The position numbers were made by a program, and so were the translations under genes. Below, piece by piece: positions 36,099-40,751 of a stretch of 64,000 nt of DNA (its first letter is position 1; every line of letters begins with the position of its first letter). The notes beneath the pieces were generated by a model. That model was given only the letters and a program-made list of their open reading frames with translations. It did no database searches and had not been told where the DNA came from. Origin of the DNA: Tatumella ptyseos (GTDB lineage: Bacteria > Pseudomonadota > Gammaproteobacteria > Enterobacterales > Enterobacteriaceae); the NCBI RefSeq assembly GCF_030552895.1, contig NZ_CP130649.1:1488001-1552000 (forward strand). Reading direction: 5' to 3'.

Positions 36099-36302
36099 CG
36101 TTCAGTCCTAGTCATAATATATAGCGATATTATTATCAGTGAACCGATCCCATTGGAAGATGAACACTAAAAAAATGCGACCTAGAAAAAAAATTGGTGA
36201 ATAGTTAACCAAAAAGTTGGGTGGTGTAAAAAACGGATATTATTGAGCCATACAATCCTCTATCGTTTATCTCAATCAATCTTCGCCAAGAGTAAAGCTG
36301 TT

Positions 36303-37370
36303 ATGGATACATCACACTACCTTGATGATGACGCACGCTGGCAAGCCTTGAAAGCTCGTGATTTAGCCGCCGATAACGATTTTGTCGTCGCGGTACCTTC
36401 TACTGGCTATTATTCCCCCCCCAGTCAGATACTGATTTTACCCGCGAGGGATAATGTTGAATTTTTCAGGGATGGTGAGACAGCAGAAGCGGCCGGCTAT
36501 ACGCTCAGCGAAGTCCTTTCCTCGCCCAAGATTTATCCCGAAAAATGGCTGAGGATCGTGAAAAAAAGTTGTTTTCTTATTGAATCAGCGGAGCAGTTAC
36601 CGGATCTTTCGACGCTTGCCAAATACTGCGCAGTGAGTGGTGGCTACCTTCACCGTATTTTCAAATCAGTAACGGGACTAACGCCGAAAGCCTACAGTGA
36701 AGGCTTACGTGCTGCTCGCTTACGAGAGGAACTTAATAAGCCGCAGCAATCGGTCTGTGAGGCAATTTATCAAGCTGGATTTAACGCAAACAGTCGATTC
36801 TATGAAAATGCCTCACAACGTCTTGGAATGTCCGCTAAGCATTATCGACGTGGTGCTGCAGGCGTGACCATTTACTTCGCTTTGGGCCAATGTAGTCTGG
36901 GTTCAGTACTGGTCGCGCAAAGTGAAAAAGGCGTTTGTGCAATTAGTTTAGGGGATGAGCCAGAGTCGTTAATCACTGAGTTTCAACAACAATTCCCTCA
37001 TGCTACTTTGATGGGAGGGGATACGCATTACGAACATCTTGTGGCACAAGTGATTGGATTTATCGAGCAGCCTAGTACGGCGTGGGATTTGCCTCTGGAC
37101 ATCAAAGGTACCGTCTTTCAAGAGCGCGTATGGCGAGCGTTACAGGAAATTCCACTCGGTACAACGGTGAGTTATACCGATATTGCCGAGAAACTGGGTT
37201 CCCCTAAATCTGTACGGGCTGTTGCGCAAGCTTGTGCGGCCAATCGACTGGCTATTGTGATCCCCTGTCATCGCGTGGTCAAACGCGATGGCCAGCTATC
37301 AGGTTATCGGTGGGGAGTCGCCCGTAAAGAGGCGCTATTACGACGAGAAAAAAACGCTAATAAAACTTAG
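36303..37370 (+). CDS. ada: Ada homologue lacking the zinc cysteines of its sensor domain
   Basis: E. coli Ada is a repair protein and activator: its N-domain takes methyl groups from phosphotriesters onto zinc-bound C38 and then activates genes; its C-domain repairs O6-methylguanine. From the ATG at 36303 the 355-residue product aligns without gaps with E. coli Ada through the N-domain, but the four zinc ligands C38, C42, C69 and C72 are S38, Q42, S69 and L72. The AraC helix-turn-helix region (about 95-185) and the C-terminal methyltransferase with acceptor C322 in P-C-H-R-V remain. It should repair O6-methylguanine but not sense phosphotriesters as Ada does. The alternative TTG at 36243 has no family support. 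Confidence 0.9.
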   Translation: MDTSHYLDDDARWQALKARDLAADNDFVVAVPSTGYYSPPSQILILPARDNVEFFRDGETAEAAGYTLSEVLSSPKIYPEKWLRIVKKSCFLIESAEQLPDLSTLAKYCAVSGGYLHRIFKSVTGLTPKAYSEGLRAARLREELNKPQQSVCEAIYQAGFNANSRFYENASQRLGMSAKHYRRGAAGVTIYFALGQCSLGSVLVAQSEKGVCAISLGDEPESLITEFQQQFPHATLMGGDTHYEHLVAQVIGFIEQPSTAWDLPLDIKGTVFQERVWRALQEIPLGTTVSYTDIAEKLGSPKSVRAVAQACAANRLAIVIPCHRVVKRDGQLSGYRWGVARKEALLRREKNANKT

Positions 37371-37372
37371 CC

Positions 37373-37407
37373 TCATCCCTCGACATGTGGCGTTTACTGA
37401 GGGATGA
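37373..37407. terminator. Hairpin between ada and basS
   Basis: TCATCCCTC (37373-37381) and GAGGGATGA (37399-37407) pair over 17 bases between convergent gene ends. The right arm lies within the last basS codons. No T run is visible, so function is uncertain. Confidence 0.4.
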
Positions 37408-38458
37408 CGACACTGGCACGGCAACCGGTAGGGACTAGATTCGTCAGGCTGAACTGGCTACGGTGTAATTGACAGATACGCTGTACAATATTCAACCCCA
37501 AGCCGATACCATCGTATCGACGATCCATTCGGACAAAAGCTTTATTGAGTTCAGTTGCCTTGTTGAGATCTATACCGGGTCCTTGATCATCAATCTCAAT
37601 AACAATACGTTGCTGCTGAGAGGTAACCCTTAAAGTAATTACCGACGCTTCAGGGCTGTAACGGTGAGCATTTTGGATAAGGTTTTGTATTACCATCTGC
37701 AACAGGGTGATATCTCCCCGCACTTGAGGTGTATTATCTGGAAGCTCCACTTTTAAAGATTGATGTCGTTGGGCCAATTGGCGTTGAAATTCGGGCAACA
37801 TAGGTACTATAACCGCCGCCACTATATCGAAATACTGATAGCTGCCGGCGGCAAAAGACTGGCCAACCCGAGCCAGTTTAAGTAATTGAGCAACACTTTC
37901 GGTCATTTGATCTAATCGCAACAGCAAATCTTCTAAGTTGAGTTGATGCTTCTTCTCGATCAATTGCAGATGCAATCGTAGCCCGGCCAGGGGAGTGCGC
38001 AGTTCGTGAGCTACGTCAGCGGTGAAAAGTCTTTCTCGTTCTAAGGTAACGGTCAGTCTTGCCATCATAGTATTGATGGCCTCAACGACGGCGCTAATCT
38101 CAGTATACTCACTGATTGCGGAGAGCGGTTCGAGATTTTCTTCCGAACGCTGAGTTAACGCATTACTTAAATCGGCTAAGGGTTTGGTGACTCGTCTGAT
38201 GGCATTGAAACAGAGTAGTAAGCAAGCAATGATAATCAGTAGCGAGGGGACGGCTAGACTTGCCACCGCTTCATGCACCTCTTTCTCATAGTGGCGATGA
38301 CGGTCGTGATGATTGATAGCACTTTGCACCAAGATTGTCACTTGTTCACGGCTTTCGTGCCACAGCCAGAGTATGCTAACCACCTGGCAAATCACGATGA
38401 TTGACCCCACCGTCAGCATAAGTTTCCAACGTAAGGTAGTCGGGGTGAAGGATTTCAC
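37394..38458 (-). CDS. basS: Two-component sensor histidine kinase BasS/PmrB
   Basis: The membrane sensor of the PmrAB system, responding to ferric iron, mild acid and other cues and phosphorylating BasR. The 354-residue product has two membrane helices (about 13-30 and 68-85), a short periplasmic loop with an acidic Y-E-K-E-V-H-E segment (ExxE iron-binding type), a HAMP domain, the H-box V-A-H-E-L-R-T-P-L (about 151-159) and N, G1 and G2 boxes ([21 protein letters not shown]). It overlaps basR by four bases. Confidence 0.94.
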
Positions 38459-39123
38459 AATATCTCCTGTGTCCTTATGGAATACCCAAAACCTCGTAGG
38501 GTTTGAATACGCTGTTTGCCAATTTTATCCCGTAAATTATGGATATGGACTTCAAGAGAATTAGTAGAGGGTTCGTTATCCCAGCTGTAAATATCACTAT
38601 AAAGCACATCGCGATGGACAGGTTGATTCACCTTCAGCATCAACCGCAATAAAATGGCATATTCTTTCGGGGTTAATTCGAGTAGTTGTTCCGCTAGAAA
38701 AGCTTGCCTATGACCTATATCAATAGTGAGATCATCGACTTCAAGTCGATTATCCGATTGTTGATGAAAACGACGGATTAATGCTCGACTCCGTGCCAAC
38801 AGTTCTTCCAGTGCGAAGGGTTTGATAAGGTAATCATCAGCGCCACTATCCAGCCCCACAATACGATCTTCTAAGGTATCTCGAGCGGTCAGGATGATAG
38901 TGGGAAGTGTATTTTTTTGTCTTCGTAAACGCTTCAAAAAGGTTAAGCCATCCCCATCCGGAAGCCCAAGATCCAGTAGGAGTAAACTGTAAGATGATGT
39001 CTCCAAAAATTGTTCGGCACCCTTTATGCCATTTACGGCATCGCACAGGTAGTTTTCGCTTTGCATGGCCAGTAACATCCCCTGCTGGAGCAGGGGATCA
39101 TCTTCGATGATTAAGACTCTCAC
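38455..39123 (-). CDS. basR: Two-component response regulator BasR/PmrA
   Basis: An OmpR-type response regulator of 222 residues. The receiver domain has the acidic pair E-D-D (7-9), the phosphoacceptor D51 in L-L-L-D-L-G-L-P-D and K-P-F at about 101-103; the winged-helix domain ends in R-G-F-G-Y. It is close to E. coli BasR through the conserved [18 protein letters not shown]. It binds PmrA boxes of the type CTTAA(G/T)-N5-CTTAA(G/T), one of which lies before eptA. Four-base overlaps link it to eptA and basS. Confidence 0.96.
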
Positions 39124-40751
39124 GCTTTACCTCGACAGTGGGTAAGTAAATCGAGTTGGGGTTGGTATTCCTGGGTTTGGACACCAAACAACCCTAAAAT
39201 TGTCGGGAACAAATTATCTTGTGAGGTTTGCATAAGTTTAGCCTGATCAACCATACATTTCTGATCGACAGCATAACGTTGCTGATAGTCTGGGGAAAGC
39301 CAAATTAATAATGGCACATGTTTCTGCTGAATCGGTGCAATCATGTAAGGCAGTCCATGCAAATAAACGCCATCTTCGCCCAACGATTCGCCATGATCTG
39401 ATAAATAGACTAAATTAGTGGTAAAACGTTGTGAATTTGCTTGGAGAAGATGAATACCTTGATCAACCATCGCATCCATGTAACGAATAGTATTGTCGTA
39501 GGTATTCACCAGCTGTGCGGTAGAACAGTGTTGTACCTCATTAGTATCACAGGTCGGAGTATAATATTTAAAGGAATCTGGGTAGCGGTGATTATAGGTT
39601 GGTCCGTGGCTACCAATAGTATGCAACACGATTAACGTATTACCGTTTTGTTTATCAATATAACTCTGTAAGTTATGAAACAGCAGTTGGTCATAACATT
39701 CGCCATCGATACACATACCAGGTAGATTCTGCGAGGTCATCTCTTCGGTTGGAACTCTGATACAAGCGCCCTTACAGCCGCCATCGTTTTCACGCCATAG
39801 CACGTTGATGCCAGCACGCTGTACAATATCCAGCAGTCCCTCACGATGATTTGCGAGTTCATCATTATAGTGGTCGTGGCCCATTCCCGAAAACATACAG
39901 GGCACTGACACGGCAGTCGACGTACCACAAGACATAGTGTTTGGGTAATAAATCACTTTATCTTTAGCTAAAAGAGGCGTTGTTTGCCGTGAATATCCCG
40001 CAAGTCCAACATCTTGCGCACGCGTTGTCTCGCCCACTATGAGTATGGTTAACGTCGGCTTACCTGTTAAGTGGGTAGAGAGTTGGTGAGCGTCTTCCCC
40101 AAAACGGATTAAAGGGAGATTCGCCGTCCGCTCGTGTTTATACCAAGATAACGCTGCCGCGATACCATTTGATGGGCTTAGATAGGTAATCAATTCGCGA
40201 TTATTACGAAACAGCGAAGCATAATCTTTATAGAAACTGTTTGAAATTAAATAGGTTCCGGCTGCGGAGACTAACAATGCGATTAATGCCCAGCTGATGC
40301 GCCGCAGAAACGGTTGGCGTGTCAAACGCCGTACGATGAACAATACGATAATTGGGATAATGGCGGTCACAATAAAATAGCCAACCATCTGCGGCGTTAC
40401 CAACGCGAAACTCTCTGCCGCGGTGGTATTCGCCATATTTGCGACCATCGATCTATCGACAATAATTCTGTAACTACTCATAAAATATTGGGCGCTACTC
40501 GCGAGCAAGATAAACAGTACCGCGATAGGAAAAGCCAGCCAAACCACTTCGGCCAACATTAATAGGCTAAATAATACAAAAAAGGAGACCCAGGGCATGC
40601 TTAGCAAGAAAAGCCAGGTATGACTGTTAGTTGGGTGAACAAGCCGATAAGCCTGTTCGAAATAAGGAATATTTAAACACAACGTGATGGCAGCTGCCGT
40701 CAACGCATTGATTACGGGGTGCGTTAAGCGTGTGGTGAACCAACTCTTCAT
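39120..40751 (-). CDS. eptA: Lipid A phosphoethanolamine transferase EptA
   Basis: EptA (PmrC) moves phosphoethanolamine from phosphatidylethanolamine to lipid A phosphates on the outer face of the inner membrane, giving resistance to polymyxin and cationic peptides. The 543-residue protein has five N-terminal membrane helices (about residues 10-170) and a periplasmic sulfatase-like domain with the nucleophile Thr in I-V-G-E-T-T-R-A-Q (about 237-245), metal-site segments D-H-G-E-S-L-G-E (about 456-463) and S-H-G-P. First gene of eptA-basR-basS, under a PmrA box. Confidence 0.96.

Follow-up and report, generated by a model that had tools for sequence, protein, structure and literature searches.

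Ada is the textbook metal-thiolate chemical switch, and the present locus raises the question of what such a protein does once its metal site is gone. The E. coli protein combines a Zn(Cys)4 methylphosphotriester sensor, an O6-methylguanine methyltransferase and an AraC activator. According to the available text of PMC4437013, the charge of its zinc-thiolate centre repels DNA as long as C38 is unmethylated; the A box is recognized by R45 and R71, and the B box by F114, H115 and R118. In the window, i.e., the whole 64,000-nucleotide stretch of DNA that was analysed, one gene codes for an Ada-family protein with the following features:

36303..37370, + strand: ada-family gene, 355 aa, with N-Ada, AraC HTH and O6-methylguanine methyltransferase domains
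36330..36527, + strand: N-Ada (Ada_Zn_binding) domain, residues 10-75, zero cysteines
36414..36416, + strand: codon 38, Ser in place of the methyl acceptor and zinc ligand Cys38
36426..36428, + strand: codon 42, Gln in place of zinc ligand Cys42
36435..36437, + strand: codon 45, Ile in place of the A-box-reading Arg45
36507..36509, + strand: codon 69, Ser in place of zinc ligand Cys69
36513..36515, + strand: codon 71, Val in place of the A-box-reading Arg71
36516..36518, + strand: codon 72, Leu in place of zinc ligand Cys72
36612..36854, + strand: AraC-type HTH domain, about residues 104-184, with S-R-F-Y-E at 164-168
36642..36647, + strand: codons 114-115, Gly-Tyr in place of the B-box-contacting Phe114-His115; Arg118 is retained
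36864..37352, + strand: O6-methylguanine methyltransferase domain, about residues 188-350
37266..37268, + strand: codon 322, acceptor Cys of PCHR, kept

The frame is intact, as originally predicted: it is open throughout from the ATG start to the stop. A TTG-started extension to 36243 is likewise open, and the alignment of the relatives begins at the ATG. The zinc-binding domain is still matched by Pfam (PF02805, 51.4 bits against a cut-off of 23), as are the AraC HTH and methyltransferase domains, and the NCBIfam model for Ada (NF011964) passes its own cut-off. In the AlphaFold model, N-Ada is predicted to be folded, with block mean pLDDT values of 86-94 over residues 11-70, and was matched to E. 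coli N-Ada. Alignment to the E. coli K-12 Ada record places S, Q, S and L in columns 38, 42, 69 and 72 and leaves PCHR intact. This agrees with the original prediction, in which all four zinc-site cysteines were replaced (S38, Q42, S69, L72) and the AraC domain and acceptor C322 remained. Residues 1-78 contain no cysteine and one histidine; hence, no substitute zinc site is visible, and a replacement site in this N-domain was rejected for lack of cysteine. The further claim that the methylphosphotriester sensor should be dead is upheld by the known chemistry, from which phosphotriester repair would be lost, while repair of O6-methylguanine through C322 is presumably retained, judging from the sequence. 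The loss is not confined to the functional zinc residues, as had been proposed, since R45I, R71V, F114G and H115Y are changed as well: the five DNA-reading residues R45, R71, F114, H115 and R118 are I, V, G, Y and R, with one of the five kept.

The window ada belongs to a nectar bacterium of the genus Rosenbergiella, with identities of 80% to that of R. epipactidis, 81% to R. metrosideri and 64% to R. collisarenosi. A local sequence error or a misassembly has a negligible chance of explaining the substitutions. No supporting point was found for it, and against it stand the open frame, the quality of the genome (3.2 Mb in 2 contigs, rated 100% complete) and the absence of three of the cysteines from independent relatives. 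Cysteines in relatives had been named as the sign of such an error. In the four nearest proteins (P0002-P0005, 77-80% identical), C38 is indeed present, but C42, C69 and C72 are missing in all, which rules out a local error for these three. Neither is the loss peculiar to the window gene: a wide clade is without three of the four cysteines in all its parts.

Among the best 120 of 7974 significant proteins (the window's own included), only 7 carry CCCC at columns 38/42/69/72, and 50 carry C-S-S-A. Anything but CCCC is called zinc-less here; a Rosenbergiella locus with a cysteine in column 72 (L036) is thus counted as zinc-less. Among the best 80 of 585 confirmed ada loci retained from a genome scan, 61 are zinc-less and 19 are CCCC, 18 of the latter being titled Pseudomonas; this set and the protein set were both drawn with a mostly zinc-less query and do not give a prevalence. 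The zinc-less loci come from Cupriavidus, Burkholderia, Bordetella, Alcaligenes, Variovorax, Hydrogenophaga, Dyella, Tahibacter, Cellvibrio and Marinobacter and from several Pseudomonas, P. aeruginosa PA7 among them. In an even sample of the phylum (110 genomes, of which 33, the window's own included, have a match at E <= 1e-10), 34 matches were listed; three and the window's own gene were left unread, and all 30 loci read carry the four cysteines. Zinc-less Ada is therefore a minority class, and the idea that it is common is ruled out by this sample.

Outside Rosenbergiella, 58 zinc-less loci remain from the 61. C42, C69 and C72 are each found in 0 of the 58, while C38 is present in 52. The A-box arginines are nearly always there (R45 in 57, R71 in 56), as are H115 (56) and R118 (57), and the acceptor cysteine is kept in all 58. 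Within flanks of up to about 6 kb, an AlkA match lies near 17 and an AlkB match near 19 of the 61 zinc-less loci from the best 80 of 585, neighbours that fit alkylation repair. In the open-access literature, as far as listings and passages were covered, no account of an Ada lacking its zinc cysteines was found. This clade is a more interesting finding than the window gene alone: it dropped three of four zinc ligands and kept the DNA-reading arginines, the repair cysteine and mostly the operator, and it thus offers a natural test of whether the Ada switch needs zinc and whether the C-terminal acceptor can be the trigger.

A careful tree was built from the HTH and methyltransferase parts of 83 proteins, the N-domain being left out. 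In this tree, whose bootstrap had not settled, 65 zinc-less rows and five CCCC rows of the P. putida type form one clade (support 100/98), and the enterobacterial and Burkholderia CCCC rows fall outside it. Rosenbergiella lies within a subclade of 13 zinc-less rows (98/100). The window protein, in which C42, C69 and C72 are absent, thus nests in the zinc-less clade on a tree free of the N-domain. An earlier quick tree had placed Rosenbergiella beside zinc-type Ada with an unstarred support of 87-89; the careful tree differs from it by 25 dropped rows (fewer near-copies) and 12 added proteins (intermediate relatives). Two changes of zinc state suffice, and two are forced by starred branches. 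Accordingly, there were either several losses of the zinc site or a single loss, after which the P. putida group regained it or acquired its domain by a swap. The CCCC proteins nested in the zinc-less clade belong to P. putida-group loci such as L074, L086 and L103, and to protein P0046.

The operator was followed in the same loci. In E. coli, the Ada box consists of an A box, AAT, and a B box, GCAA, in the form AAT-N6-GCAA (PMC3788762, available text). This strict form occurs within 150 nt 5' of ada in 35 of the 58 non-Rosenbergiella zinc-less loci (from the best 80 of 585), against a mean of 0.7 and a maximum of 4 in dinucleotide shuffles, 9 on the reverse strand of the same stretches and 5 in 584 regions upstream of other ORFs in these loci. 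For the looser WWW-N6-GCAA, the count is 43 of 58, against a shuffled mean of 4.3 and 12 on the reverse strand. Of the 35 strict boxes, 31 begin 77-84 nt ahead of the assigned ada start, and 19 begin at 83 nt. The consensus of the box region in the zinc-less clade is AATTcaanCGCAAGAAnCGGAGTtCTTGCG. An inverted second arm, matching at 10 or more of 15 positions, accompanies 23 of the 35 boxes, 22 of them at one spacing (shuffled fraction 0.028). It accounts for part of the reverse-strand count and, from its sequence, suggests two bound copies of Ada. As for the zinc-type controls, the strict box lies upstream of ada in 8 of 9 enterobacteria; directly before ada it is found in 2 of 19 P. putida-group loci, in which alkA is usually the first gene. 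In 25 of the 35 zinc-less-clade promoters with a strict box, a CGG follows GCAA after 4 nt. That this CGG is peculiar to zinc-less Ada was refuted, as the same spacing is found in most P. putida-group promoters and in one of the eight enterobacterial ones.

Whole genomes were searched for 42 of these 58 zinc-less loci. In 23 of the 42, there is also an intact CCCC N-Ada protein (25 such proteins); in the other 19, none was found. The strict box stands before ada in 14 of the 23 and in 14 of the 19, the remaining 14 of the 42 lacking it. In the 19 genomes, no candidate reader other than the zinc-less protein was found, so the zinc-free N-domain would still read DNA. In the wider clade, it probably still recognizes the Ada box and autoregulates, as far as the sequences indicate. 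Among the 25 intact N-Ada proteins, 18 are candidate N-Ada-AlkA fusions, with an AlkA match in open frames of 483-607 aa; they occur in 18 of the 23 genomes (L116, L119-L121 and L123-L136). The genomes of PA7 (L137) and Alcaligenes (L138) hold a further Ada-like match with a methyltransferase part.

How a zinc-less Ada might be switched can be considered from Cada2 of Caulobacter, a protein without the A-box domain that is activated by methylation of its PCHR cysteine, according to the available text of PMC10957082. Without the zinc-thiolate centre, the N-domain may be permanently DNA-competent, and a C-terminal acceptor trigger like that of Cada2 is, by analogy, perhaps the simplest idea for the zinc-less clade. 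Locus L073 has G38, a box before ada and no intact N-Ada found elsewhere in its genome; this speaks against a need for C38. Among the six zinc-less loci without C38, it alone has a box directly before ada. Zinc-less Ada might even represent a third mode of the adaptive response, in which the N-domain would at all times be able to read AAT and, together with the HTH, would bind AAT-N6-GCAA, often with two copies on the inverted repeat, and C-terminal methylation in place of phosphotriesters would do the switching, an idea that we put forward tentatively and hold to be rather doubtful. Within it, Rosenbergiella would be the next step, the box and its readers having been lost together, which is equally speculative. 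PA2118 is presumably the zinc-less ada of P. aeruginosa, which fits the PA7 neighbour genes. A binding atlas of this species lists PA2118 among putative biofilm-associated factors (PMC8041468, available text).

Downstream of the zinc-less ada, a small protein resembling the N-Ada zinc domain is coded near 18 of the 61 loci from the best 80 of 585 (for example, L037 7783-8043 and L100 7787-8116). Twelve of the 18 frames are 86-127 aa long, and the 16 of them in which this stretch was read have G at column 38 and keep C42, C69 and C72. These cysteines complement the one kept by most zinc-less neighbours. The protein was found near none of the 19 zinc-type loci, but these are not independent, since 18 carry Pseudomonas titles. 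None was found near L034-L036 or in the window's genome, in a family search that misses some known ones. A split sensor was not adopted as a general answer because the small protein lies near only 18 of the 61 zinc-less loci.

In Rosenbergiella, the reduction extends to the DNA-reading residues. Among nine proteins of this clade (P0003, P0004 and P0008 being omitted as near-copies), R45 is replaced by I, L or V, R71 is gone, and F114 is G, S or T in all nine. H115 is Y in eight, and the remaining one retains it. C38 is kept in five and lost in four, the window protein included. The sub-branch also has no AAT-N6-GCAA upstream of ada in the coding direction (0 of 3 loci), so neither the arginines nor the box are present, a combination that is usual, although not universal, in the clade. 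For the window ada, no WWW-N6-GCAA was found in the coding direction within 200 nt 5' of the gene. The best match to AATTNNNNCGCAA in this region has 2 mismatches and lies on the other strand; upstream of L034, there is one AAT-N6-GCAA on the opposite strand. The same region holds another element:

36232..36264, + strand: promoter block AACGGATATT-N12-AATCCTCTATC, upstream of the window ada

With up to 3 mismatches, this block occurs once per genome in 4 of 5 Rosenbergiella genomes, always just 5' of ada, and the congener G002 has a weaker form. Its CGG aligns by eye with that of GCAA-N4-CGG in the wider clade, and the block, with its CGGAT, could be a new operator. At the ada locus of G002, about 4.1 kb of other DNA replaces codons of about 44-168: a weak trace of codons 17-43 (E 0.1, at the expected place) is followed by the 4.1 kb and then by codons 169-351. 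A methyltransferase-only frame is left (L143 6066-6599, ATG start, 177 aa). Together with this truncated congener, Rosenbergiella may show the stepwise dismantling of such a regulator.

A second, intact ada, which the original prediction had proposed to look for, was not found: the PF02805 profile gives one match at E <= 0.001 in the window's own genome, namely the window gene. Its product is also the only PCHR methyltransferase found there. In the sole other methyltransferase-like match, PWYR stands where PCHR would be, without the cysteine; this alkyltransferase-like protein is coded at L142 1816-2166 (C1 of the own genome, about 934.3-934.7 kb). All five Rosenbergiella genomes have an AlkB-family gene, which is not beside ada in the window's genome. 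In each of the five, there are two HhH-GPD matches, which were assigned from their sizes to Nth and MutY (the open frames in the window's genome have 216 and 373 aa); no AlkA candidate was thus seen among them.

We consider that the window protein is probably a repair protein for the most part, with a reduced regulator, on a branch of the zinc-less Ada clade. A clade ancestor, or a few early losses, would have dropped C42, C69 and C72 and kept R45, R71, the B-box contacts and the C-terminal acceptor. The clade proteins would not sense methylphosphotriesters by the known zinc-thiolate route, and reading of the Ada box and autoregulation probably persist in them. In Rosenbergiella, the A-box and B-box readers would then have been altered along with the box, which was not found, and the window species would have lost C38 as well. 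The window protein most likely acts mainly as the cell's only suicidal O6-methylguanine repair protein, through C322, and its N-domain and HTH would be a leftover that still folds and diverges but has ceased to run an Ada-box regulon. What is read directly from the sequence are the substitutions, the clade, the lack of the box, the truncation in the congener and the fact that a single PCHR gene was found; the loss of phosphotriester repair and of the Ada-box regulon and the retained repair of O6-methylguanine are what we infer. Of the options first offered for the window gene, a pure repair protein is likelier than a constitutive regulator, and a differently triggered regulator better suits the wider clade.

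A trigger of that kind may also be imagined for Rosenbergiella itself: the protein would autoregulate through its HTH on the AACGGATATT block upon methylation of C322, as Cada2 does through its PCHR cysteine (PMC10957082, available text), with the N-domain as a scaffold. The block before ada in four of the five genomes and nowhere else in them, its weaker form in G002 and its CGG, placed by eye as in the wider clade, all favour this, as does purifying selection on the HTH in the sister species L034 and L035. However, the block may be no more than a core promoter, the contacts F114 and H115 have disappeared, G002 has lost most of the regulatory half while its methyltransferase frame stays, and, as AlkA was not found, little regulon is left. 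This makes such a rewired regulator unlikely.

The regulatory half might, on the contrary, drift without function and be headed for loss, with G002 as a possible end state. Most of the known functional sites in the N-domain and two of the three B-box contacts have been lost, which points in this direction, and so does the dN between the window gene and L034, which is 0.23 in the N-domain, three times the 0.075 of the methyltransferase. Rapid change of the N-domain alone is no proof of decay, as the ratio of N-domain to methyltransferase divergence in Rosenbergiella (median 2.53, in a methyltransferase divergence band of 0.05-0.20) hardly exceeds that of the zinc-type P. putida group (2.28). 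Moreover, the selection check suggested with the original prediction gave purifying selection on the N-domain in the pair L034/L035. There, pN/pS is 0.036 for the methyltransferase, the most constrained domain, 0.20 for the N-domain (Fisher p 0.0004) and 0.22 for the HTH, values well below 1, so that the latter two still have some function in those species. Both the window gene and L034-L036 have an intact frame, and the AlphaFold model retains the N-Ada fold. Plain relaxed decay is thus improbable, even more so than the rewired regulator, and the reading as mainly a repair protein is kept.

Compared with known systems, the window protein shares the domain order, length, HTH and acceptor PCHR of E. 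coli Ada, and most of the wider zinc-less clade has the Ada box and its reader residues. Unlike E. coli Ada, the zinc-less proteins are without the zinc ligands, and Rosenbergiella is without the A-box arginines, F114/H115 (one of nine keeps H115) and an Ada box in the coding direction. The clade resembles Cada2 as a regulator without a zinc sensor, with its acceptor cysteine in the C-domain and with GCAA and CGG in many promoters. Unlike Cada2, which has no A-box domain, the window protein carries a full N-Ada (51.4 bits to PF02805). The RLHD motif is absent from it, with S-R-F-Y-E found at 164-168 instead, a difference from Cada2 if this is the same place. The CGG of the clade lies 4 nt after GCAA against the 3 reported in the available text of PMC10957082, and the clade promoters keep the AAT box. 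With the stand-alone O6-methylguanine methyltransferases of the Ogt type, the acceptor motif is shared, and the G002 remnant has their architecture. In contrast to them, this remnant derives from Ada at the same locus, and the window protein still bears the regulatory half.

Downstream of the window ada, on the opposite strand (37394-40751), lie three genes whose products look by eye like PmrB (sensor kinase), PmrA (response regulator) and EptA (sulfatase-type membrane protein).
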